This document shows, in pieces, positions 1,926-38,989 of a DNA stretch of 39,365 nucleotides (positions within the stretch are counted from its first letter, which is position 1; every line of letters starts with the position of its first letter). A program made the translations under genes and the position numbers. Under the pieces are notes generated by a model. It had not been told where the DNA came from. It saw only the letters and a list, made by a program, of their open reading frames with translations, and searched no databases. This DNA comes from an uncultured Flavobacteriales bacterium. GTDB taxonomy: Bacteria; Bacteroidota; Bacteroidia; Flavobacteriales_D; Parvicellaceae. Location of the stretch: contig CAJQPO010000029.1 of NCBI GenBank assembly GCA_905480225.1, positions 1-39,365 on the forward strand. Reading direction: 5' to 3'.

Positions 1926-3197
1926 ATGAAAAGGAAGATAGTCTTGTTGCTGTGTATTGCTTTGAGCATACTATTTGGCTGGACTTTAGGGTATCTGCGA
2001 CTTCCTTATGTGCATGAAAAATATTCCTTTTGGCTTGGTGCTATTTGTTTTTCAGCATTGTTTATGGCTATTGTCTCATTGCTCAAATTATGGAACAAGC
2101 AAGCTTTATTTTCTCGACCATCAAACAAAAAACAGGATTCGGAAACCGCTAGTGATTCAAAGACAACAGCGTTAAAGTTAATAGTACTTGTCATGGGAAT
2201 TGGATTATGCGCTCTCGCGATGGGTCATGTACTTGTTAAAGGTCAGTTGAAAGATCAAGCTGTAGTTAATCAGCATCAAAAGAAGATTATTAAAGAACAA
2301 GGACAGGTGATTTCATTATTTAAGAATAGAAATTTCGGTGAAATGATCAATGCCGTTTTAATACTGGCTGAGAGGGAGTTAGAATTGGATTCTAATCGTA
2401 GGCTAAGTAATCAATTGATCAATCGTATGGCTGCATTGAGTCAAGCGCTCGAGCCATACACGTCCAGTGCAGGTGACAGCTTGAATGCTAAAGCACATAG
2501 CCCAGAAAGGGGGCAACTATTGTTGGCATTGTCAATTATGCAATTAGATTCTATTACGTTTATGAAAATAAAATCAGAGGTGCTTTTCACTTTTGCTGAT
2601 TTGCGGGGAGCTGATCTGGAAGGTGCTGATTTAAGTGGAATTGATTTGAGTAATTCGGTATTAGAAAATGCTAATTTAATGAATGCGAACCTAAGTAAAG
2701 CTCAACTACAAAACACCAATTTGTATGCTGCAAATATGCGCAATGCGCAGCTAGAAGAAGCTGATTTTAGCCATTCGAATCTTAGCTGGGCAGTCTTGAA
2801 CGATGCATATTTGAAATTCGCGGTTTTTAATGGTGCCTACCTGCGCAATACACAGTTAATGAAAGCTGATTTGCGAGAGGTCTTTTTTCAATATGCTGAT
2901 TTAAGTGGCGCAATCCTGAATGAGTCTGACTTGTCGGGCTCAGACTTAATAGGTACCCGTTTTATAAAAACCAATTTTACAAAAGTTAATCTAGGAAATG
3001 CTCGACTTGTTCAGGCTGATTTTACGCAGGCTATTTTGTACGAAACTGCATTGAACAATGCAAAAGTTGAAAATAACTGGTTTACAAAGGTGAGTGAATG
3101 GAAAGTTTTGGGAGAAAAGAACCTATTTAATGCTTATGTTATAGACAGCACACAATCAGAAACTGGAACTTCTTTTTATGTTTCAAGAAAGAAATAA
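1926..3197 (+). CDS. Membrane-anchored pentapeptide-repeat protein
   Basis: This 423-residue protein has three predicted hydrophobic segments (about residues 4-24, 33-56 and 83-104). A charged, possibly coiled segment follows to about residue 140, then a helical region. From about residue 223 to 385 there is a long run of pentapeptide repeats of A(D/N)LXX type (for example ADLRGADLEGADLSG), with about 30 units expected to form a right-handed quadrilateral beta-helix. The last 35 residues lie outside the repeat. Pentapeptide proteins have diverse roles and the repeat alone does not give a function; the membrane anchor makes a DNA-gyrase-protecting role of the Qnr type unlikely (inference). The gene stands alone, divergent from the GH106-like gene and convergent with the next gene, from which it is separated by 3 bp. 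Confidence 0.85.
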   Translation: MKRKIVLLLCIALSILFGWTLGYLRLPYVHEKYSFWLGAICFSALFMAIVSLLKLWNKQALFSRPSNKKQDSETASDSKTTALKLIVLVMGIGLCALAMGHVLVKGQLKDQAVVNQHQKKIIKEQGQVISLFKNRNFGEMINAVLILAERELELDSNRRLSNQLINRMAALSQALEPYTSSAGDSLNAKAHSPERGQLLLALSIMQLDSITFMKIKSEVLFTFADLRGADLEGADLSGIDLSNSVLENANLMNANLSKAQLQNTNLYAANMRNAQLEEADFSHSNLSWAVLNDAYLKFAVFNGAYLRNTQLMKADLREVFFQYADLSGAILNESDLSGSDLIGTRFIKTNFTKVNLGNARLVQADFTQAILYETALNNAKVENNWFTKVSEWKVLGEKNLFNAYVIDSTQSETGTSFYVSRKK

Positions 3198-22942: not shown

Positions 22943-25807
22943 ATGCGATTACATTTCCTTTTTTCTTTTTTTATGGTTCTCTCTGCGGTTCATGGGAAAA
23001 GTCAAATACCTACATGGGTTGAACACTTAGATACTTCAACTACTTTTTCTTCTCCCAGACCAGTCGAACTAAATGGTGATAATATTCTTGATATTGTTAT
23101 TGGTGGCGGTTTAGATGGAAGTCCTGAATCTAGAGGTGTTGTCGCGTTAGATGGTGCATCTGGAAGTCAATTGTGGAATTTCCCTACACAAGAAGAAATA
23201 TTCGGAAGTGCTCAATTTTTAGACATTACAGGTGACAACGTTAAGGATGTTTTTATTGGCGGAAGATATGCGGAGTTCTATGCAATTGATGGCGCAACAG
23301 GCGCTATGTTATGGGAGTTCTTTCCACATTCACCATTAGAAGCTACAGATAGTGGGTGGTTTAATTTTTATACTCCCCAATTTATTCCGGATCAAAATTC
23401 GGATGGCATCATGGACTTATTGGTAGCGAATGGTGGTAATCATAGTTTGCCTGCATGGGATACCTTGCGAGATCCTGGAATGTTATTGGTGATTGATGCT
23501 TTAACGGGGAATGTGCTTGCAAGTGACACGATGCCCGATGGTGAAGAAACGTATTGTTCGGCTATTGCTGTAGATATTGAAGGGACTGGAACTTTGGATG
23601 TCTTATTTGGTTCCGGTGGTGAAAATGAGGGTGGTCATTTTTATAAAGTTGCACTTACGGATTTAATGATGAATGATATAGGTGGAGCTGATGTGTTAGT
23701 ATCCGACAATGAAAAAGGTTTTATCGCTCCACCTAGCGTTTCTGACATTAATCACGATGGAAAATTAGACATTATTATTCAAGGATATAATGGTACCATT
23801 AGTGCTATTGAGGGTGGTAGCCTCAATGTTTTGTGGGAGGTTCAAAATGCTGGAACAGAAGCAAGCGCTGCGCCAGTTATAGGTAATTTTATTGGCGACA
23901 TTAGTAACGATGTATTTGCTGTTTTAGCAAAGGGCTCAGCCCCTACTTTTTTTGACTATTATCAATTGATGATTGACGGTGCGACCGGAGAGGTTCGATG
24001 GAAAGACAGTATTTCGGATCTTCATTTTTCTTCGGCGAATGCAATGGATTTAGATTTAAATGGCAGGGATGAAGTAATTGTCTCACTTAATTATCAAACA
24101 GGAACGCATTTCGAGCACCAACTTCTGAGCATAGACTTCCAATTGAATCAAGTAACGCCAATAAGTATCGCTCAAGGGGGAGTTAATTTGGGCTCAACTC
24201 CGCTCTTGTGCGACATAGATAGCAACGGTTATGTTGATATAGTGTACGCTTTTAGGGCAGACAGTGTTAACCCAATGGGTGCAAACGGATTTAAAGTGAA
24301 TCGACTCGAAACAACTTATCCGATTCCTGGTGTCGGAATTGCTTGGGGAGGATATATGGGAACACATTTCGATGGTACATACACTTCATTAGCATATGAT
24401 TGTGGAACGTTAAATCTTAATTTAAGTGTTGATAATATCAGTTGTAATGATTTTAATGACGGTACGGCATCTGTTCTGCCAAATGGCGGTACGCCTCCTT
24501 ACAACTACAATTGGTCTAATGGTTCAATCAATGACTCTGTTGGGCCGCTGATGCCGGGATCATACAATGTTGTTGTTGTCGACTCTTTAGGATGTTACGA
24601 GAATCAATCTTTTACTATTAATGACCCTTATGTCATTACATTTAGTGGGTCTCCTCCATTGATTTGTCCAGGAGATAGCACATCGCAGGTTACTGTTAAT
24701 TCCTCTGGTTGCCCATGTATGTTTAGTGGTTGTGTGTTTGATTGGAGTAATGGCGACTCTACGAAAACGGCAGCTGGGCTATGGTCTGGTTGGCATTTTA
24801 TAACAATTATTCACACAGATGGTTGTATTACATTAGATTCAGTGCTAATTCCAGAGCCTTCACCAGTTTTGGATTCTGCATTCAGTTCTAATATTTCTTG
24901 TGCTTCTTCTCCTATACCTGACGGATCAATAGAGCTTTTTTTGAGTAATGAAGCAAACACAATGATTTCGTGGAATAATACAGATAGTGTACCGATTATT
25001 GATTCTCTTGATGTTGGATTGTATTACGTAGATTTATTAGATAGTATTAGAGGCTGTTTCGAATCAGACACCTTTCTAATCACAGTGCCAGATACTTTAG
25101 TGGTGTCCTTTACTCAGACCAGTTCTTTATGTCACAAGGATTCTGCTGCGAGTATCTCCCTGATTGCACAAGGGGGAATAGGGCCTTATGAATATCTCTG
25201 GAACACAGGCGATAGTGCGAGCTCAATTTTAGGTCTTGCCCCGGGTTCATATCAGGCACAAATAAGTGACTCTCTTGGCTGCTCGATTGAAAGTCCTGCT
25301 TTTTCTGTTACTACTCCAGATGAAATGCGCACTGTTAATACCATTATTCAAGACACATTGGGAACCTGTCAAGGAGAAGTAACAGTGTTGCCCATCGGAG
25401 GAACGCATCCTTATTCTTATTCATGGATTCCCAGTTTAGATAGCACTAATCAGATAACCGATTTATGTCCTGGTACTTACATCGTCATTATTACTGATTC
25501 CAATGGTTGCCAAATAAACGACACGATAATCATTAATTCTTTAGTGTCTGTTAACGAAACGATTGATCCAAAGATCACGATCTTTCCGAATCCAGCTAGG
25601 GATGTAGTTACTATTATACTAGAGTCAGACAATAGCTTCACGCAGATAAAATTTATGAACATGTTGGGTCAAGTTGAATTTCTTGAAAATTTCAAGAATA
25701 GGAATCAACTAACATTGAATACTTATTCTCTTTCTGCAGGGATGTATATGGTGCATCTTTCAGGTGAAAATGGTATTCCAGTCCTATTACCTGTCTTGAT
25801 TGAATAG
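22943..25807 (+). CDS. T9SS-secreted beta-propeller protein with SprB-type repeats
   Basis: This 954-residue protein has a signal peptide (MRLHFLFSFFMVLSAVHGKS). Residues 20-480 form a predicted beta-propeller built of VCBS/FG-GAP-like and PQQ-like blades, with Ca-binding type loops such as DQNSDGIMD, DINHDGKLD and DIDSNGYVD. From about 498 to 866 there are five SprB-type repeats of about 70 residues; the clearest are ISCNDFNDGTASVLPNGGTP and LCHKDSAASISLIAQGGIGP, each with YxWNxG and PGSYxVxxxDSLGC. Residues 878-954 (ITIFPNPARDVVTIILE...SAGMYMVHL) are a T9SS type A sorting domain. Surface exposure and a role in binding or gliding are inferred. An ATG at 22936 is out of frame. It ends 8 bp from the convergent pseudouridine synthase gene. 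Confidence 0.88.
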   Translation: MRLHFLFSFFMVLSAVHGKSQIPTWVEHLDTSTTFSSPRPVELNGDNILDIVIGGGLDGSPESRGVVALDGASGSQLWNFPTQEEIFGSAQFLDITGDNVKDVFIGGRYAEFYAIDGATGAMLWEFFPHSPLEATDSGWFNFYTPQFIPDQNSDGIMDLLVANGGNHSLPAWDTLRDPGMLLVIDALTGNVLASDTMPDGEETYCSAIAVDIEGTGTLDVLFGSGGENEGGHFYKVALTDLMMNDIGGADVLVSDNEKGFIAPPSVSDINHDGKLDIIIQGYNGTISAIEGGSLNVLWEVQNAGTEASAAPVIGNFIGDISNDVFAVLAKGSAPTFFDYYQLMIDGATGEVRWKDSISDLHFSSANAMDLDLNGRDEVIVSLNYQTGTHFEHQLLSIDFQLNQVTPISIAQGGVNLGSTPLLCDIDSNGYVDIVYAFRADSVNPMGANGFKVNRLETTYPIPGVGIAWGGYMGTHFDGTYTSLAYDCGTLNLNLSVDNISCNDFNDGTASVLPNGGTPPYNYNWSNGSINDSVGPLMPGSYNVVVVDSLGCYENQSFTINDPYVITFSGSPPLICPGDSTSQVTVNSSGCPCMFSGCVFDWSNGDSTKTAAGLWSGWHFITIIHTDGCITLDSVLIPEPSPVLDSAFSSNISCASSPIPDGSIELFLSNEANTMISWNNTDSVPIIDSLDVGLYYVDLLDSIRGCFESDTFLITVPDTLVVSFTQTSSLCHKDSAASISLIAQGGIGPYEYLWNTGDSASSILGLAPGSYQAQISDSLGCSIESPAFSVTTPDEMRTVNTIIQDTLGTCQGEVTVLPIGGTHPYSYSWIPSLDSTNQITDLCPGTYIVIITDSNGCQINDTIIINSLVSVNETIDPKITIFPNPARDVVTIILESDNSFTQIKFMNMLGQVEFLENFKNRNQLTLNTYSLSAGMYMVHLSGENGIPVLLPVLIE

Positions 25808-29679: not shown

Positions 29680-32271
29680 CTACTTTATTACCTGAAATTT
29701 GGTGGTTGCAATTGCTTTATCTGCATAAATTGTGAGCGAATAAATAGATGGCGATATGTGTGTTAAAGAGAGTTCCGTTTTAAAGTCAGAAACTGACTTT
29801 CTGATTATTATTCGACCGTTAATGTCAGAAACTACTACTTGATTTATTTTCGAAGAAGCTTGAATGATCAACAATTCAGAGGCTGGATTAGGAAACATTT
29901 TATATTGGATTCCATTTTCAGCAACTGGTGAAACCGATATAAAAAGACTATCAGAAATTGAGGAACAACCATTTGAGTCAATATATTCCACAAAAATCCA
30001 TTGGTTATTTGGGGCACTAAAAACAGTGTCATTTTCACCAGTAGCTGCTACTCCATCTACATACCATTGAATCGAGTCGGCCGGATTAGTACTAAGAATT
30101 CCACTACCCCAGTTTGTAATTAGTGGTGTAGCAGGTAAACCATGTTCGGTAATATTGTACCAGACTGAATCACTTATACACCCGTGGATGTCTTGCACCA
30201 AGACATATCCAGAAAAGGAAGTATCGGTAATAAATGAGTTTGATGATGATTCGCCATTCCAGTCATAGACGACATAGCTGCTGTCTGTGGTTAAAACAGT
30301 AGATTGGCCAGCGCAAAAAGCAGTGTCACCCAAAAGAACCGGTAGCACATTCGTTTCATTTAACAATGCAAATGCATCAGGCTTGCCATACCCCCACTGA
30401 TTATTGGGAGTCGTTCCTGTAAATCCGTCTTCAAAGGAAGTGTTTTGCAAAAGTGCTAGGAAATCTTGTTGCGTAATTGAAGGACATTTTTCCAGTAATA
30501 AAGCACCAATGCCTGCAACACATGGCGCGGAAAAAGATGTGCCTGATCTTTTCAAATGGAAACCTGTTTGCGATAATTTATAAGCCTGTGCTCCCCCCTG
30601 AACAATGATGCTTTTAGCAACGGGCAATGAACCAAGCAGCCATCTGCCAGTAGCCGTTACATCCGGTTTGATCAAATTCAACCGGTTAGGTCCGCGACTC
30701 GAGTGGGAAGCAATGCCATCTGTTAATTCATCACAAGCTTGCCAATCCCCCAAGAAATCAGTGTAGCCTGAAGCTTGAATATAATCTCCTACTGTAACTA
30801 CATTTTCATGACATTGAAAACCACTTACCACTGATTGTGTAGAATCAGGAAGTATGTAATTGCTCATTTGAGGCCATGTGCCGAATGCAGGAAGACCCGT
30901 GTCAAGCATATTTGAATACCAAATGACATCAGAACCAACAGCTATACCAAAAACTTCCAAGGACCAGAGATCAAAACTTCCTTCTCCCGAAGAAATTAGG
31001 CTGTAATTGAAATTAGTGGAGTCTATATTGGGCAGAAAAACTTGCAAGTTGTATTGACCACCTCTTAATTCAGTATATATTGATACATCGGCTAACTTGT
31101 TGCCTCCAGACATAATGGAGTCCATCACTGTAGTTCCAATTAAACCATCAGTTAGAATGTTTCTGAAATTAAGGTGTCCACCATGGGTGAAAGAAACGTT
31201 GTGGTCTGCACCTATGGAAAAATTTAAATTCGACATGTTGCTAGTGTCTGCCCAAATATCTAAGAATACTGTTGGTGAAGATGTGGATGCAAAATTAGGC
31301 TGAAACCAGGTGAAATTGGTATCTGTTCCGGCGACGGAATGCCTCAAGTGATAAGGCCCAAATGCACCAGAATTACCTGCAGCAGCGACAAACAACCTTC
31401 CAGATTTTTCATTTAACAAACTATCTAAAAATAATGCTGTAGCGTCAAGGCCGTCATGAGAGCCTAAATAATCACCGTAACTGGCGTTTATCACACAAGG
31501 TTTATTGTACGTGTCAGATAAATCATAAATGTATTTGAATGCATCCACACTTGCTGTCAAATTGACTCCCGTAAAATCTAATGCAACAGCAATGATATCT
31601 GATTCAGGTGCAATTCCGATGTATTTATTACTATGTGTGCCATTTCCTGACATGATACCTGCTACACCAGAACCATGGCCATTCGCATCGTAATGAACAC
31701 AAGTGCCCGCATTGATGTCTGAGCTATCAAAAGCTTGTCCGTAGCCGTATGTGGGCGTTAATGATGCGTCATAAGGTAGGTTCTGGTCCCATATGTTTAA
31801 TATACGAGAGCTCGAATCAGCATTTCTAAAATCCATGTGTTCTAAAGCGATTCCAGTATCAATTAAACCAGCGATGACGTCTTTTCCTTTATAAGACTTT
31901 GGTAATGGGAATTGACCTGAATGAGCGGCAAGTGCTCTGTTTTTTATCAATACAGAATCTCCCAATAGTTTTTTATTTCCCCATTCAAATTCAAAACCTT
32001 CAACAAAAGGCTTTTGTGCTAAAAATTTAATGTCAGAAATACTAATTTCTGCTAAAATTAAGTTTTTTAATTGTCCCTTAATTTTTCTATTCAACAGGTT
32101 TAAATAGGTTTGAATTTGAGCAACGTCACCTCTAATGAAAATGGTTACAACTTGCTCATCACTCATTTGATTAACTAAAAGTTTAGTTTGCACATTCATG
32201 TGCTCAATTTTTGCTTGCTGAGAAAACCCTAAAAAAGGTGATAAAACAAGGAATAAGAATAGCAATCGCAT
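29680..32271 (-). CDS. T9SS-secreted subtilisin-family (S8) serine protease
   Basis: From the ATG at 32271 the protein has 863 residues with a signal peptide (MRLLFLFLVLSPFLGFSQ). A propeptide-like region follows (about 20-120), then the S8 catalytic triad: Asp138 in AGLIDTGIALEH, His199 in GHGSGVAGIMSG and Ser579 in SGTSFSAPCVAG. The oxyanion Asn is in AAAGNSG (about 300). An insert of roughly 150 residues, beta-rich, lies between the oxyanion Asn and the catalytic Ser. Residues 640-780 are Ig-like domains, and the C-terminal 75 (YKMFPNPASELLIIQ...SPSIYSLTIY) a T9SS type A sorting domain. It should act outside the cell on protein. A TTG-extended start at 32277 is rejected in favour of the ATG. 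The stop abuts the hydroxylase stop. Confidence 0.92.
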   Translation of the reverse strand: MRLLFLFLVLSPFLGFSQQAKIEHMNVQTKLLVNQMSDEQVVTIFIRGDVAQIQTYLNLLNRKIKGQLKNLILAEISISDIKFLAQKPFVEGFEFEWGNKKLLGDSVLIKNRALAAHSGQFPLPKSYKGKDVIAGLIDTGIALEHMDFRNADSSSRILNIWDQNLPYDASLTPTYGYGQAFDSSDINAGTCVHYDANGHGSGVAGIMSGNGTHSNKYIGIAPESDIIAVALDFTGVNLTASVDAFKYIYDLSDTYNKPCVINASYGDYLGSHDGLDATALFLDSLLNEKSGRLFVAAAGNSGAFGPYHLRHSVAGTDTNFTWFQPNFASTSSPTVFLDIWADTSNMSNLNFSIGADHNVSFTHGGHLNFRNILTDGLIGTTVMDSIMSGGNKLADVSIYTELRGGQYNLQVFLPNIDSTNFNYSLISSGEGSFDLWSLEVFGIAVGSDVIWYSNMLDTGLPAFGTWPQMSNYILPDSTQSVVSGFQCHENVVTVGDYIQASGYTDFLGDWQACDELTDGIASHSSRGPNRLNLIKPDVTATGRWLLGSLPVAKSIIVQGGAQAYKLSQTGFHLKRSGTSFSAPCVAGIGALLLEKCPSITQQDFLALLQNTSFEDGFTGTTPNNQWGYGKPDAFALLNETNVLPVLLGDTAFCAGQSTVLTTDSSYVVYDWNGESSSNSFITDTSFSGYVLVQDIHGCISDSVWYNITEHGLPATPLITNWGSGILSTNPADSIQWYVDGVAATGENDTVFSAPNNQWIFVEYIDSNGCSSISDSLFISVSPVAENGIQYKMFPNPASELLIIQASSKINQVVVSDINGRIIIRKSVSDFKTELSLTHISPSIYSLTIYADKAIATTKFQVIK

Positions 32272-32274
32272 AAT

Positions 32275-32282
32275 CAAATATA
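32275..32282 (-). promoter_or_regulatory. -7 promoter box TATATTTG, probable leaderless start
   Basis: On the minus strand a perfect TAnnTTTG is followed by ATT and the ATG at 32271, a 3-nt gap that places the expected transcription start on the A of the ATG. It separates the protease from the 1774-residue gene upstream. Confidence 0.6.
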
Positions 32283-32389: not shown

Positions 32390-35300
32390 TTATTCCGAAG
32401 ATACGGTTGTTTCTGTGTCCCAGGTCGTTTCTGAAATTGGTCGGTCATCTTTAAAGTATTGCTCAGCAAACTTTGTTTTCACCATAATGTATTTATATCC
32501 CTTATTTCCTTGTACAACAACTCTAACCACGGTGACTTTCGTTACATTGCCACGAGCATCAGTGCTTTGATAAACATTTTCTGTCACTCCTTGATCGTAA
32601 TCAATAGCCAATTGGTTTTTAAATGAACTTGCATTTTCCTGTATGTCAATACTAGCGTTATCTTCATATTTATTCCTTCGCGCATTGTATGCATCATCCA
32701 AAACCTGATTCTTTTCAGCTTGATCATTATACATTTTATCCTGAATATTTGTTAAATCGTCTACCCCCTTTTGTCTAGGAACGTCAGCACCAGCTAATTG
32801 GTTGTTCATTTTAGCAGTAAATTCATCTTGATCTTGTTGTTGTTGGTAATTTTTTTCAGTGGCACTCTCTTGCTTATCAGTTTGCTGGTTTTCTAATTGA
32901 TCTCTAGTGGCTTCATTTGCTTCAATACTTCTCTGTCTCTGTTTATCTGATCCAATATTGAATTCTTGAGTTTTTTCTACATATTCTTCTTGCTCTTTGT
33001 GTCTTTCGTAGGTTTTATCCTGCGCACTAAGTTCTTTTTGATTATCGGAGCCCTCGAGTAAATCTATCGTCTTTGTATAATTCGCGACTTTTTTCTGACG
33101 CTGGATATCCAATTCTTCAACATTATCTGCAGCATTGGTTTTATAATTTTCAATATAATTATGTTTTGCGTAAGTTTTATTGTCGCCGTCAGCTGATATG
33201 TTTTCACTCCATTTTGATAGGTCATCTTTATACGTTTCATACGCATCTACATATTTTAAACGGGGCTGCTCTCGAGACTCAGATACATCTTGAAATTTTT
33301 TCAATTCACTTTCAATTGACTGGTGAGTTTGATAAGTGCGTGCTTCATTATTCTCGGCCTGTTGAACTGTCAGGTTTCGATCTAAATCTTTGTATTCCTG
33401 CATTCTTTTAGCAAATTCTAATCTTCTTTGGTCTCCCTCATCCGCGTCTTTAAATAGCTTATCTGTAAAGTTTGTATTAAATTGATGCTGACGGTAGTCA
33501 GTCTCGTTATCAATTTCCTGACGAGATCTATTCCATTCATCAATCGAAACTTTATTGGCTAATTGATTATTGGTTGTTGTTTCTCTTCTGTCAATATTTA
33601 TTTCACTGTCTTGAACAGTTCTCATTTTCAAATCTTGGTTATCAGCGTACGCTAATTCTGACCTCGATAGTGCTACACTCAGTTTAGGGTCTTTCCATTT
33701 TACTAATTGATCCTTATACTGCTCATATGCTTCAGCATTTATGTCTTTACTACTTATTGCTCCTTGCTTTTCTCGATTCGTTCTTTCAATATATTCACGA
33801 GCCTTCGTATAGGAAGTATAGGTTCGATCTGTAAAAGCCCTCTCTTTCGAGACATTTTGATTTTCTCTAATGCTTCTCGCGTTTTCAACTTCATCAATGA
33901 TTCGCTTTCTAGACTCGTCATTTTTGAGGTCCGCATTTGCAAGCCCCAAGTTGTAATCGTCATACTTTTGAAAGCTGTCATCAGATTTGCTTTTAGCATT
34001 AGATTCCAATCGTTGGTTAAAATCAAATTCGGAAACAACCGTTTTTTCAAGTGCCGCATCCCTCCAATTGTCGTCAACGAGTTGGTTGTTCAAAAGATCT
34101 TTTACCGCTAAATCTGGAGATTTCTGCCCAGTTACATTTGTCCCAAATTGTGCATCGGAGCTTCTTTCAACTTTCTTTTTCGTTGTTTTCTGTTCCACAA
34201 GTTCCCCTTTGCTAGCTAGAAATTTTTTAATCTTAGCTATTTGACTTTTTGGATATGCTTCTGCCGGTTTAATTTTTAAAGCACTCTGATAGGACTTCAT
34301 TGCGATTTTAAATTGCTCATCTTTAAATTCAGTGTCAGATTTTGCAATAAGGTTATTGTATTTGTTGTCGAGTGCTAATTTGGCCTCTCTCTCTTTTAAA
34401 ATAGCATTAATCTTACGAATTTGTGCGGGAGGGTATTTATCATTTGCTCTTAATCCTTTAGCCCTGGCATACAATTCTTTTGCTTTTTTGTAATCTTCAG
34501 CTTGAAATTTTTTATCAGCCACATCGATTAGCTTCTGATATGCAGCAGCACCGTCATTCATTTTATCTAGTTTATCTTGCAGCTTGGCAGCTTCTGTAGC
34601 AGGATAGGTCTCGTCATTCTTAATTTTATTAGCAGCCTTGAATAAGTTGATGGCCAGTTGAATTTTTTTTCCATCAGTGGCTATGTCTCTTGCCGAGTTA
34701 GCCTCCTTAATTTTTGCATTATAAGCTAACAGTATTTTGCGATTTGCCTCATCTTCCAAAGCCAAGTCTTTTTCAGCTTGAATTGCTTTTTCAATTAGTT
34801 CTAATTGTTTTTGTGGATATTCTTCATCAAATAAGTTGAGGGCTGCCCTGTAAGTGCTCTTGGCTTGCCCCCAATTTTTCAGTCGATAACTACCATCACT
34901 TTTAGCAATTAATTCATCATATTTTGCTCTTTTTTCTTTTTCGGCTAATTCAGCATTTGCCGCATTTTTTTCTTCTTGAATAGCTTTTACGATTAGAGCC
35001 AACTGTTTTTTCGGGTACTCTTCTGGAAACAGCTTGAGGGCATTCGTATAAGATACTTTTGCCTCAATCCAATTTTTAGAAGCCATTTGTGCGTCTCCAG
35101 ATTTAATGAGATTGTCGTACTTGTCTCGTCGTTCTTTTTCCTTAGCAGCTAATAACTCTTTTGCTTTTTCCTCCTCTTTTTTCTTCGTAATCTCAGCCAA
35201 TCTCTTAGGTGGATATGGATCTTCTGGGTGCATGCCTTTCGCCCTGGTATACAGTTCTTGTGCTTTGTCGTAATCGCCGTTTGTAAACTTGGTGTTCGCA

Positions 35301-37714
35301 ACGCTGATGAGTTTGTCATAAGCATTTTGTGCGCTATTTATTGATTCTAATTTTTCTTGAAGCTTTACGACTTCTTCTGCAGGATAAGTTTCGTCATTTT
35401 TTATCGCATTCGCCTCTTTGTATAAAGCGATTGCTTTATTAATTGCTGGGCCATCATTGGCTAGTCCTCTTGCAGCATCTGCTTGTTTAATTTTTGTTTT
35501 GTATTGCGCTAATGTTTTTGCTTCAGCAGCCAGAGCCATTTTATTTTCTTTTTCTTTTTCAATTTCTATATTGATTTTGGCTATTTGATCTTTAGGGAGT
35601 TGTTCAGAAAAGAGACTAATTGCACGATTATAGGAGGCTTTTGCACCTATCCAATCTTTGGATTGAAACTGTGTATTACCCTTGGATATCAATTGGTCAT
35701 ATTGAGCTCTTTTGGCTTTTTCTGCTGCCTCATTGGCCGCGGCATCCGATTCATTTTTTATTGCTTTTTGAACAGCAGTAATTCCATCATGAGCTTCTTT
35801 CCTGTCATAAATTTTTAAGGCTGAGCTATATGCTTTCCTCGCTTCATTCCAATTCTTTGCATCTAAATAAGATTTGCCATCAGCAATAGCTTTGCTGTAG
35901 TTCGTTTCTTTAACTTTCTCCATTTCTGCTGCTTTTTCAGCTGCTTTGAATTTTTGGATATTGGAATTTATCAATGCAATTTGATCGGTTACTTCTTTTC
36001 TCGAGAAAACAGCAAGAGCTTGAGTGTATGTTTTCTTTGACTCTTCCCAATTTTTTGAATCAAACTCTCCCTTTGCTTTTGATAAAAGTTGTTGATATTG
36101 TTCTTCTTTTTGTTTGTTTAACTCTGCTGCTGCTGATGCATCTGCTTCTTCTTTTATTTTTTTGTTAACGAGCGTGATTTTTTGATTAACATTTGCATCA
36201 TTTGTAATCTTTTTTGCTGCCTCATATGCCGTCTTTGCTTGAACCCAATCATTATTAACGTAATGCTTTTGACCCTGAGCCATTAGGTCATCAAACTCAG
36301 CTTTCTTTTGATTCTCTTCATTTTGCTTTTTCAGAAGAACTTCAATTTTAGCCAGTTGATCTTTTGGTAATTGCTCATCGTATAATCCTAAGGCTTCTTG
36401 ATAGTTCGACTTAGCCAAGTCTAGTTTTTTGCTCGAAAAATTAGCGTTTCCACGAGCAATTAGCCCGTCGTATTTCGTTTTTTTCTGCTTTTCTTGAGAT
36501 TGCTCAGCGAGTTTCTCGTTTACCTTGGCAATTTGTTCAGTTGGGTAGGACTCATTTATTAAGTTTTTAGCTGCTAGGTATTTTGCTTTGGCACCTACCC
36601 AATCTGTTGTAGCAAATTTTGCATCAGCTTCTTTTATGAATGCATCATATCTGGCTTGTTTCTCAAAAATATTCGAAATTTCTTTCAATTTATCTTTAGG
36701 TGCTCTTTCCCCTGGCTTGAGCCCAACTGCTTCCTCATATTTTAGTTTTGCATTGGTATAATCTTTACTGTCAAATGCCGTTTTTGCTTCTTTCATTTTG
36801 GCAACATAGGCTAGATTATTTGCTGCGTTGGCTGCATTGTTCTTCGCTTTATTAGCGGCTGCTATTTTTTTATTTGGTATCGGATCCCCCGGTTTTATAT
36901 TTTTCGCACTTTCGTATTTTGCTATTGCCTCATCGAATTTTTTTGAAGCCACTAAATCATCACCTTCTTTAATCTTAGCATTAAACTTCGCTAAAACTTC
37001 TGCATTGGCCTTATTCTCTTGTAATTTGTTTTCTGCATCCGCTATTTTCGACTCAAGCCCAGGGTGATCGGGTTTAATTAATTTTGCCGCATTGAATTTG
37101 GTGATTGCTTGTTGATAATTGCCGCTTGAGAAAGCTTTGTTACCCGCAGCCAATTCGGTATTGAATTTCTGATCATTTTCTTTCTGCTTATTGGATTGAC
37201 TGGCCATAAATTTTTGAATCTCACTGGAGCGCCGAGAAATAAAGCTCATGTCATAATTCATTTGTCCCGTTGATGGATCTATTCGAGCTTTTGCCACAGG
37301 GCTTTTTGTAATCACTGAATAATCAACACCTGGCTGCTTCGAAATCATCTCAGGGACAAATTGAATTTCTGTCTTTTTTTCCATGATTTCATCAGGGAAA
37401 TACCCTTTCTTACCATCTATTAAAGTAATCTTACTAACAAAACCACCTTTACTTATCGTCACTTCATAAATATGGTCGTATGGCATAATTATATTTTCAT
37501 ATTTGCCGTTGCTTCCAGTTTGCACTGTTTTAAAAGCTTTGCCATCTTGTTTGATTGAAATTGTGGCACCATCTACTTTCCTTCCAAACTTATCAGCAAT
37601 ACCTTTTTTGCCGGATGTTAACACCATTACGGGGTCATCTTGAGCGAGCATACTCGATGGATACGACCAGAGCAAAATTGTCAGAATCAGTACGGTATGT
37701 AGTGTATTTCTCAT
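32390..37714 (-). CDS. Giant exported TPR and 54-residue-repeat protein of unknown function
   Basis: This protein has 1774 residues. It starts with a signal peptide (MRNTLHTVLILTILLWSYPS, cleavage near AQDD). Residues about 35-110 are a carboxypeptidase-regulatory-like beta domain (GKKGIADKFGRKVDGATISI). Residues 184-1167 hold 16 long TPR-like units, each starting near YDxLIxKG and running through FxxKxWxxAKxxYxxAL to a YPKxQLAxI motif; many lie 66 residues apart with a charged helix between. Units 8-11 and 12-15 form a 260-residue super-duplication. Residues about 1244-1690 are about nine degenerate 54-residue units with conserved Tyr at 1407, 1461, 1515, 1569 and 1623. The last 65 residues are a beta-rich cap (VVRVVVQGNKGYKYIMVKTK, then ISETTWDTET). 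No T9SS tail, OmpA domain or membrane span is present. A periplasmic or envelope scaffold is the likeliest role, but this is inference. Confidence 0.85.
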   Translation of the reverse strand: MRNTLHTVLILTILLWSYPSSMLAQDDPVMVLTSGKKGIADKFGRKVDGATISIKQDGKAFKTVQTGSNGKYENIIMPYDHIYEVTISKGGFVSKITLIDGKKGYFPDEIMEKKTEIQFVPEMISKQPGVDYSVITKSPVAKARIDPSTGQMNYDMSFISRRSSEIQKFMASQSNKQKENDQKFNTELAAGNKAFSSGNYQQAITKFNAAKLIKPDHPGLESKIADAENKLQENKANAEVLAKFNAKIKEGDDLVASKKFDEAIAKYESAKNIKPGDPIPNKKIAAANKAKNNAANAANNLAYVAKMKEAKTAFDSKDYTNAKLKYEEAVGLKPGERAPKDKLKEISNIFEKQARYDAFIKEADAKFATTDWVGAKAKYLAAKNLINESYPTEQIAKVNEKLAEQSQEKQKKTKYDGLIARGNANFSSKKLDLAKSNYQEALGLYDEQLPKDQLAKIEVLLKKQNEENQKKAEFDDLMAQGQKHYVNNDWVQAKTAYEAAKKITNDANVNQKITLVNKKIKEEADASAAAELNKQKEEQYQQLLSKAKGEFDSKNWEESKKTYTQALAVFSRKEVTDQIALINSNIQKFKAAEKAAEMEKVKETNYSKAIADGKSYLDAKNWNEARKAYSSALKIYDRKEAHDGITAVQKAIKNESDAAANEAAEKAKRAQYDQLISKGNTQFQSKDWIGAKASYNRAISLFSEQLPKDQIAKINIEIEKEKENKMALAAEAKTLAQYKTKIKQADAARGLANDGPAINKAIALYKEANAIKNDETYPAEEVVKLQEKLESINSAQNAYDKLISVANTKFTNGDYDKAQELYTRAKGMHPEDPYPPKRLAEITKKKEEEKAKELLAAKEKERRDKYDNLIKSGDAQMASKNWIEAKVSYTNALKLFPEEYPKKQLALIVKAIQEEKNAANAELAEKEKRAKYDELIAKSDGSYRLKNWGQAKSTYRAALNLFDEEYPQKQLELIEKAIQAEKDLALEDEANRKILLAYNAKIKEANSARDIATDGKKIQLAINLFKAANKIKNDETYPATEAAKLQDKLDKMNDGAAAYQKLIDVADKKFQAEDYKKAKELYARAKGLRANDKYPPAQIRKINAILKEREAKLALDNKYNNLIAKSDTEFKDEQFKIAMKSYQSALKIKPAEAYPKSQIAKIKKFLASKGELVEQKTTKKKVERSSDAQFGTNVTGQKSPDLAVKDLLNNQLVDDNWRDAALEKTVVSEFDFNQRLESNAKSKSDDSFQKYDDYNLGLANADLKNDESRKRIIDEVENARSIRENQNVSKERAFTDRTYTSYTKAREYIERTNREKQGAISSKDINAEAYEQYKDQLVKWKDPKLSVALSRSELAYADNQDLKMRTVQDSEINIDRRETTTNNQLANKVSIDEWNRSRQEIDNETDYRQHQFNTNFTDKLFKDADEGDQRRLEFAKRMQEYKDLDRNLTVQQAENNEARTYQTHQSIESELKKFQDVSESREQPRLKYVDAYETYKDDLSKWSENISADGDNKTYAKHNYIENYKTNAADNVEELDIQRQKKVANYTKTIDLLEGSDNQKELSAQDKTYERHKEQEEYVEKTQEFNIGSDKQRQRSIEANEATRDQLENQQTDKQESATEKNYQQQQDQDEFTAKMNNQLAGADVPRQKGVDDLTNIQDKMYNDQAEKNQVLDDAYNARRNKYEDNASIDIQENASSFKNQLAIDYDQGVTENVYQSTDARGNVTKVTVVRVVVQGNKGYKYIMVKTKFAEQYFKDDRPISETTWDTETTVSSE
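32645..33982 (-). repeat. Coding tandem repeat: about nine degenerate units of 54 codons
   Basis: This covers residues about 1245-1690 of the giant protein. Five successive conserved Tyr are exactly 54 residues apart (1407 to 1623), the next step is 53, and earlier steps are 51-57. A unit reads roughly DxxYxxHxxxEEYxxK, a variable acidic turn, DxxRQRxIxxxxxxxDxL, then a polar linker. Predicted form: helical hairpins rich in Gln, Asn, Lys and Glu. Confidence 0.7.
34214..37174 (-). repeat. Coding TPR-like array with a 780-bp super-repeat
   Basis: Sixteen TPR-like units lie in residues 181-1167 of the giant protein. Units 8-11 (35120-35899) and 12-15 (starting 35119 and running down to about 34361) match in order at a constant 260-residue offset. 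This includes a divergent TPR unit in each block carrying IKNDETYPA at 771 and 1031. The nucleotide sequence has diverged, so the duplication is old. Confidence 0.75.
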
Positions 37715-37849: not shown

Positions 37850-38989
37850 ATGAGTTCAAAGCCAACAATAAGTTTTTGGGAAAAAGAAGTGTTTCTAAAA
37901 AATATTGATTTAATAATTATTGGTTCCGGTATTGTAGGGCTGACTGCTGCAATTGAGTTTAATAGGCTTCATCCAGCAAAAAAGATTGTAATTCTAGAGC
38001 GAGGGTCATTTCCCTCTGGAGCAAGTACTAAAAACGCTGGGTTTGCTTGTTTTGGAAGCTTAACTGAGTTGGCATCAGACATGGAAGTAATTGGAGATCA
38101 AAAAGTCTTTGACCTAGTAGACCGAAGATGGAGAGGGCTTTCTGTTTTAAAAGAATTAGTTGGAACTAAATCAATAGAATATGAAAATTTAGGAGGTTAC
38201 GAACTGTTTACTAATCGAGATCAAAACAGCTATGATTCGGCACTTAATTTAATGCCAAAAGTAAACGCTGAGCTGCAAAAAATAATTGGAAAAGATACTT
38301 TTCAAAAAGCGGATGATCGAATCAGCTTATTTAAATTTAAAGGGATAGAACACATTATTTTTAATCAATATGAAGCCCAAATAAATACTGGAAAAATGAT
38401 TAGTCAATTGATTGCTCTGGCGCGTGAGTCTGGAATTGAGATAATCAATGGCGTTACCGTTAATCACATAGAGGATGTTAACACATCAGTGGAAATTGAA
38501 ACGACCTTAGGAAAAATAAAGTGTCTACAATGCTTAATTGCCACCAATGGCTTTACCAAAAAGTTGTTGCCTGAGATTGAAGTGGAACCAGCGCGGGCTC
38601 AAGTTCTAATTACCAGCCCAATTCCTAATCTACCCTTTAAAGGAACTTTTCATTACAATGAGGGTTACTATTATTTTAGAAATGTTGGTGACAGAGTGCT
38701 GTTTGGAGGTGGAAGAAACCTAGACTTAGCTCGTGAAACCACCACTGAAATGGCATTATCTAATTTGATTCAGGAAAAATTAGAAGAATTACTAACCCAA
38801 GTTATTTTACCTACAAATTCTTTTGATATTGAACAACGTTGGTCAGGTATTATGGGTGTTTCTAAAAGTAAGGAAACGATATCGAGACAATTGTCGGAAA
38901 ACGTGAGTTGTGCGGTTCGGCTCGGCGGCATGGGCGTAGCGATTGGTTCCTTAATTGGGCAAGATGCAGCGCGCTCAATTAAATACTAG
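37850..38989 (+). CDS. FAD-dependent oxidoreductase (DAO family)
   Basis: The 379-residue protein has an FAD-binding Rossmann motif at residues 21-34 (LIIIGSGIVGLTAA), the acidic Glu50 that binds the ribose, and RGSFPSGASTKNAGFACFGS, typical of the D-amino-acid-oxidase/glycine-oxidase superfamily. GYYYFRN and VLFGGGRN lie in the substrate domain, and the C-terminal RLGGMGVAIGSLIGQ closes the FAD site. Members oxidise amines, amino acids or similar substrates; the substrate is unknown here. No signal peptide, so cytoplasmic. It has its own promoter box and diverges from the giant repeat-protein gene. Confidence 0.88.
   Translation: MSSKPTISFWEKEVFLKNIDLIIIGSGIVGLTAAIEFNRLHPAKKIVILERGSFPSGASTKNAGFACFGSLTELASDMEVIGDQKVFDLVDRRWRGLSVLKELVGTKSIEYENLGGYELFTNRDQNSYDSALNLMPKVNAELQKIIGKDTFQKADDRISLFKFKGIEHIIFNQYEAQINTGKMISQLIALARESGIEIINGVTVNHIEDVNTSVEIETTLGKIKCLQCLIATNGFTKKLLPEIEVEPARAQVLITSPIPNLPFKGTFHYNEGYYYFRNVGDRVLFGGGRNLDLARETTTEMALSNLIQEKLEELLTQVILPTNSFDIEQRWSGIMGVSKSKETISRQLSENVSCAVRLGGMGVAIGSLIGQDAARSIKY

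Follow-up and report, generated by a model that had tools for sequence, protein, structure and literature searches.

The minus-strand gene at 32390-37714 of the window, i.e., the whole stretch of 39,365 nucleotides that was analysed, encodes a giant protein of 1774 residues, and a 54-residue unit is repeated in its C-terminal half. The repeat matches no named family in the Pfam, NCBIfam and PDB sequences searched, and the C-terminal domain that follows it is unnamed in the libraries searched. The protein is tentatively read, with a chance somewhat below even, as a structural component of the cell envelope that is exported, is specific to the order and carries a register-locked helical rod, serving as a scaffold or tether.

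Domain architecture and gene neighbourhood

The domain order is signal peptide, CarboxypepD_reg-like domain, TPR array, 54-residue units and C-terminal domain. The features were assigned as follows.

32390..37714, minus strand: ORF of the 1774-residue protein, with full-length relatives L053 (87% identity) and L052 (54%)
37643..37714, minus strand: putative signal peptide, residues 1-24, from a by-eye reading of the sequence
37430..37597, minus strand: CarboxypepD_reg-like beta domain, residues 40-95 (PF13620, E 1.8e-5)
34220..37162, minus strand: TPR-like array, about residues 185-1165, boundaries approximate (PF07719, E 5.6e-24 over the protein)
32687..33982, minus strand: region of 54-residue repeats, residues 1245-1676, with eight unit positions, of which the profile recognises seven (self-comparison, unit profile)
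33821..33982, minus strand: unit 1, residues 1245-1298 (unit profile)
33659..33820, minus strand: unit 2, residues 1299-1352 (unit profile)
33497..33658, minus strand: unit 3, residues 1353-1406, degenerate, placed by spacing only (gap of 108 between profile matches)
33335..33496, minus strand: unit 4, residues 1407-1460 (unit profile)
33173..33334, minus strand: unit 5, residues 1461-1514 (unit profile)
33011..33172, minus strand: unit 6, residues 1515-1568 (unit profile)
32849..33010, minus strand: unit 7, residues 1569-1622 (unit profile)
32687..32848, minus strand: unit 8, residues 1623-1676 (unit profile)
32393..32626, minus strand: conserved C-terminal domain, about residues 1697-1774 (alignments A1 and A4, AlphaFold2 models, order-wide prevalence)
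37850..38989, plus strand: divergent neighbour, FAD-dependent oxidoreductase (DAO; PF01266, E 2.1e-36)

The protein had been called exported in the initial annotation, and by eye its N-terminus does appear to be of the export type. The signal peptide contains no Cys. Q25, the residue next to it, is invariant in all 32 aligned N-terminal sequences (alignment A3), as the Q-rule, a property of signal peptidase I substrates in Bacteroidetes according to the excerpt of PMC5837995, would have it. A Sec signal peptide of this kind would send the protein out of the cytoplasm. PF13620 scored 25.4 bits in the protein, below the Pfam cut-off of 32.3, and a CarboxypepD_reg-like match at E ≤ 0.1 was found in 31 of the 32 aligned N-termini. 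For the N-terminal half only, TPR membership holds, with PF07719 at 82.7 bits against a cut-off of 27. The main period of the array is 66, with a further one of 59 (lag 66 z 12.2, self-comparison of residues 150-1200). The small beta domain and the long TPR array, both placed by profile, would form a first, protein-binding half. A type A T9SS sorting domain (PF18962, TIGR04183) was not found in the protein by searches which detect one in neighbouring proteins. Neither an OmpA_C-like domain nor a beta-propeller was among the Pfam matches of the whole protein at E ≤ 0.01, and the DivIVA family was absent from the seven matches at this threshold.

A DAO homologue is the most often kept neighbour; of the 45 locus maps, 16 contain one, and some of the 45 stop at contig ends. 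Gene neighbourhood was rejected as a functional clue because only this divergent oxidoreductase is widely kept. In one family, a following gene resembles, by eye, an ApbE-type flavin transferase and another resembles Mpl. The gene next downstream of the giant gene encodes a subtilase (29680-32277), with a 39-bp tandem repeat near its end (29780-29853). The subtilase and the SprB-repeat/FG-GAP protein at 22943-25807 both carry a type A T9SS sorting domain. Elsewhere in the window, a 423-residue pentapeptide-repeat protein (1926-3197; PF00805, E 1.9e-38) lies beside an alpha-L-rhamnosidase-like gene.

The 54-residue unit and its relatives

An aligned 54-residue repeat, beyond mere composition, had been described at 33982-32645, and these coordinates are right, corresponding to residues 1245-1690 of the minus-strand ORF. 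When residues 1390-1700 were compared with themselves under BLOSUM62, the score peaked at lag 54 (z 8.6) and lag 108 (z 7.7), and both exceeded all 500 shuffles (maximum over lags: 95th percentile 3.4, largest 4.8). A unit profile was grown from the protein and its relatives, with matches counted at i-E < 1. It placed unit starts at 1245, 1299, 1407, 1461, 1515, 1569 and 1623, with steps all of 54 or 108. The four units 1407-1569 were seeds of the profile, and those at 1245, 1299 and 1623 were non-seeds. The profile agrees with the exact 54-residue spacing first noted for the five Tyr residues from 1407 to 1623. The last unit proposed, at 1676 and 53 residues apart, was not matched by the profile and is the transition to the C-terminal domain. 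The looser units proposed upstream held in part: the profile places 1245 and 1299, but position 1353 is degenerate, and the lag-54 signal in residues 1200-1400 alone was not significant in self-comparison (z 2.3).

The five units from 1407 share pairwise only 8-16 of 54 residues, and no 162-bp DNA repeat was listed by TRF in the window at score ≥ 30; the repeat is therefore considered old. In its own genome, a doubled-unit profile matched only the giant gene (four matches, all inside), and in the phylum sample it matched one of 296 genomes, the own one. The 54-residue segment gave no Pfam family at E ≤ 1 and no NCBIfam family at E ≤ 0.1, and the best PDB sequence match to the region had E 0.11; the initial annotation, too, had recognised no named repeat family. 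Among 38 aligned members, scattered Pfam and NCBIfam matches occurred in 1-2 members each, without pattern. The best were adenosine deaminase models (4.7e-5 and 5.7e-5, two members) and SMC_prok_A (4.4e-4, one member). Four PHROGs families matched one of 30 members each (best E 0.0048) and were set aside. In literature searches of open-licence papers, none of the titles or abstract openings listed dealt with the protein.

A whole-protein search of 39 genomes from the same family gave matches in 30, some of them weak or in the N-terminal part only. The named records of relatives are MAGs labelled Crocinitomicaceae, Cryomorphaceae, Flavobacteriaceae, Flavobacteriales or Bacteroidetes, and single-contig genomes exist among the relatives (e.g., G118, G120 and G056). 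Within the family, lag 54 ranked first or second in all 23 measured sequences, a count that leaves out the too short L055, and reached z ≥ 3.5 in 19 of them. In the wider order, lag 54 or 55 reached z ≥ 3.5 in 13 of 18 proteins; a clear signal was absent in the other five (L116, L118, L123, L125 and L126). L112 and L129, from another family (f10), have a period of 55 instead of 54. The units of L032 and L033 were copied recently, as their DNA shows, with period 162 and 96% and 88% matches, and in L115 DNA-level unit matches are 73%. In the giant protein, by contrast, the units are ancient: the unit keeps its length while its sequence changes, and the period has outlasted the residues that occupy it.

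Doubled-unit profiles of 16 proteins were compared with the same-family profile, and in about half of them descent of the units from a common ancestor across families is supported. E was at most 2.5e-4 for L119, L121, L110, L115 and L111, 0.002-0.0043 for L113, L122 and L124, and 0.045 or worse for eight; all 16 reversed controls were at least 0.05. Regular units were detected by the same-family unit profile neither in L035 nor in any of the 18 wider-order proteins. Among 25 proteins, stalk length falls into steps of about 53-54 residues (R 0.68). The Rayleigh p of about 8e-6 is indicative only, since a text pattern defined the boundary, the lengths had been seen before the test was chosen and the relatives are non-independent. 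These lengths came from 30 full-length rows, from which the near-duplicates L053, L052, L039 and L042 and the 55-residue L129 were dropped.

In four loci of the same family, the frame of the relative is split into two ORFs (L036:6622-11648, L046:5505-10227, L047:5989-11071 and L054:5572-7731), which may reflect gene fission, decay or assembly error. In two other loci, a small ORF like the N-terminal beta domain (L037:5807-6310, 167 residues; L128:2776-3372, 198 residues) lies directly upstream of the giant gene on the same strand.

The conserved C-terminal domain

The C-terminal domain has about 75 residues and is predicted by AlphaFold2 as five strands with a short helix. With the order-wide profile A4 it was detected in 271 of 299 sampled genomes of the order and in 62 of 65 genera, and with the family-derived profile A1 in 255 of 299; these figures count matches to the domain, not whole giant proteins. 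Among good-quality genomes of the order, 198 of 203 had an A4 match and five had none. In the phylum sample (n=395), a match at E ≤ 0.001 with A1 or A4 was found only in three genomes, all of the same order. Two weak phylum matches (E 0.003 and 0.0045) were treated as chance after by-eye reading; they fall at genes which we take, by likeness, to be UvrA-like and LigD-like.

Among the matches listed, most copies of the domain lie in frames of about 850-2400 residues. Several genomes (e.g., G039, G040 and G058) carry the domain a second time, in a frame of about 200-300 residues. For G044, G060 and G077, the matches listed place it only in a frame of about 270-305 residues. Two short proteins (L114:3096-3944, 282 residues; L117:2775-3521, 248 residues) combine a TPR-like part with the same C-terminal domain and lie near a gene read by eye as a LysR-type regulator. 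In some families they represent a mini-paralogue of the giant protein.

No PDB sequence matched the domain at E ≤ 10, and Foldseek with the model of stalk and domain gave no PDB match at E ≤ 0.001 (best 0.13). A further fold comparison reached Z up to 6.2, its matches being in part SMC-head sheets against the C-terminal domain and in part long helices, and was not taken as evidence of kinship. Because it is the best conserved part, this compact beta domain at the end of the rod would be a likely anchor or docking head. Its presence in most sampled genomes of this order of Bacteroidota, together with its lack of detection in sampled outsiders, makes the giant protein look like an uncharacterised building element of the envelope. 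With 198 of 203 good-quality genomes carrying it, the domain should matter for how these bacteria are built.

Helical periodicity, candidate readings and known systems

AlphaFold2 predicted two helices of 132 and 153 residues for the protein, followed by the five-stranded domain (mean pLDDT 77.5, pTM 0.26). For a proline-bearing diverged relative, helices of 143 and 149 residues and again a five-stranded domain were predicted (mean pLDDT 71.0, pTM 0.25), with pLDDT below 70 in the first 150 residues. Both models are of a single chain. Long helices through charged repeats are readily drawn by AlphaFold2.

In a column-permutation Fourier test of hydrophobicity, covering 39 of 40 proteins (the too short L036 was left out), harmonic 15, i.e., 3.60 residues per turn, had z 10.7. 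Harmonic 17 (3.18 residues) was as strong, with z 10.3, and neither was reached by any of 1000 controls. When 41 proteins were scanned singly, 11 had their highest peak at 3.59-3.63 and 14 had it at 3.155-3.195. The giant protein's own highest peak was 3.175, reached by 12 of 300 shuffles; in a shorter stretch of it, harmonic 15 exceeded the shuffled mean by a factor of 8.8 and harmonic 17 by a factor of 6.8. L112, whose units have 55 residues, peaked at 3.66, i.e., 55/15, with a strong harmonic 15, and L129, the other protein of this unit length, gave no helical peak. In 60 filtered units pooled from 92, the local helical phase was 134-158 degrees at columns 4-19 and 117-171 degrees at columns 28-46. 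Between these halves it was weak or departing, with 74 degrees at column 25.

According to the excerpt of PMC9858780, an undistorted helix has 3.63 residues per turn. Compared with this, a 54-residue unit of 15 turns would give a rod that is nearly straight. On the preferred reading, the units would form such a rod, long and alpha-helical, in which two or more chains probably join as a coiled coil. Each unit of 15 turns at 3.60 would return the same face to the same side, and units could be gained, lost or rewritten without breaking the hydrophobic stripe. At 0.15 nm per helical residue, a unit is about 8.1 nm and eight units are about 65 nm. As one helix this is too long, given the width of the periplasm, to cross it upright, and the rod would lie along the envelope or bundle. 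A conserved DxxRxxN[VI]xx[VLM]xxYK surface would be shown about every 8 nm along it, where partners may dock. The most likely job would be that of a scaffold or tether, presumably periplasmic. If true, a helical scaffold of great length would lie outside the cytoplasm, and its 15-turn unit would be unusually strict.

The preferred reading is argued for by the period of 54, harmonic 15, L112 at 55/15, the length steps, the AlphaFold2 helices, the agreement in helical phase, the order-wide prevalence of the C-terminal domain and the negative sorting-domain search. Against it were counted the neighbours, which give no function, harmonic 17, the own peak of 3.175, L129, the prolines and phase departure, the low hydrophobicity, the low pTM, the helix bias of AlphaFold2, the five wider-order proteins with no clear lag 54 and the short-frame genomes. 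A plain rod leaves two features unexplained, namely the 3.18 harmonic and the prolines at columns 24 (20%) and 30 (32%) of the pooled units. Proline at such positions is typical of helix starts.

Stacked helical hairpins or a long stalk had been suggested at the outset. In an alpha-solenoid, each unit would comprise a pair of helices, about 25 residues each, that begin at the DxPR and TYxN motifs; this is possible but rather unlikely. The unit resembles itself at shift 29 (= 25), the top lag of the circular profile self-correlation (0.128, against a spread over lags of 0.062). DxPR and a polar stretch, KTYxN, resemble helix caps, and at both of these joints the hydrophobic amplitude falls; harmonic 17 is strong and gives the protein its highest peak. 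However, both AlphaFold2 models break once in about 290 helical residues, not twice per unit. Hairpins need neither exactly 15 turns in 54 residues nor the near-equal phase of the unit halves, computed at 100 degrees per residue without a shuffle control. Hydrophobic residues make up about 21% of the stalk (17-34% over 41 proteins), which is little for a solenoid core. The stalk is thus favoured by the two models and the shared helical phase, and hairpins are less favoured, although the 3.18 harmonic, the prolines and the two-fold unit fit them. The low hydrophobicity would also suit a largely disordered, charged linker in which the repeated motif would serve a partner as a linear binding motif and the helix would be transient. 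This is quite improbable; the high D/E/N/Q/K content, the conserved polar D22 (75%), R25 (85%) and N28 (63%) and the falls in pLDDT speak for it, but a linear-motif linker would tolerate indels, whereas the spacing of 54 is kept in diverged lineages and the 3.60 harmonic is strong.

With regard to function, the protein could be an accessory, in a way comparable to PorE, of the machinery for type IX secretion or gliding. This would be compatible with any of the structural readings, and is given a low probability. The machinery is present, with SprA detected in 265 of 269 same-order genomes; SprA is near universal there, so its co-occurrence cannot discriminate. PorE is likewise a proposed periplasmic scaffold with TPRs and a CRD in the excerpt of PMC5053529. 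Against this role, no machinery gene was found among those neighbours annotated or read, and the C-terminal domain is confined to the order in the phylum samples. Also counted against it, type IX secretion machinery occurs more widely than the order. A bolder form of the preferred reading is considered unlikely, i.e., an order-wide exported cytoskeleton-like element. Here a periplasmic coiled-coil rod, anchored by the C-terminal beta domain, would act as a ruler or track with a partner every 8 nm and set envelope spacing, cell shape or gliding.

Known systems resemble parts of the protein. Residues of about 185-1165 match TPR models; the TPR unit has 34 residues, whereas the array has the longer period of 66, which we infer may be a TPR pair plus an extended segment. 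PorE (PG1058), in the excerpt of PMC5053529, is an envelope protein for which a role as periplasmic scaffold is proposed; it joins TPRs to a carboxypeptidase-regulatory-like domain. In the same excerpt it is predicted to be a lipoprotein and has a beta-propeller as well as an OmpA_C-like domain, whereas the Pfam matches of the giant protein include neither of these two; no long repeat rod is described, whereas the giant protein has the 54-residue units. In domain content, PorE is the closest system.

FilP and Scy of Streptomyces are cytoplasmic and have a 51-residue repeat. In the giant protein, unlike them, the rod is preceded by a signal peptide, a beta domain and TPRs and followed by another beta domain, and its unit has 54 residues. 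In the excerpts of PMC9858780 and PMC6599971, FilP and Scy are long rods with non-heptad helical periodicity. In the former excerpt, their hendecads give little supercoil and they carry a DivIVA-like N-terminal motif, for which the Pfam search gave no match in the giant protein. A comparable non-heptad rod in the giant protein may be indicated by the 3.60 harmonic and the AlphaFold2 helices of single-chain models, but the 3.18 harmonic is equally strong. Among bacterial rods that are long and non-heptad, FilP and Scy offer the closest working model, and the giant protein is filed as a new family of the long periodic rod kind, outside FilP/Scy.
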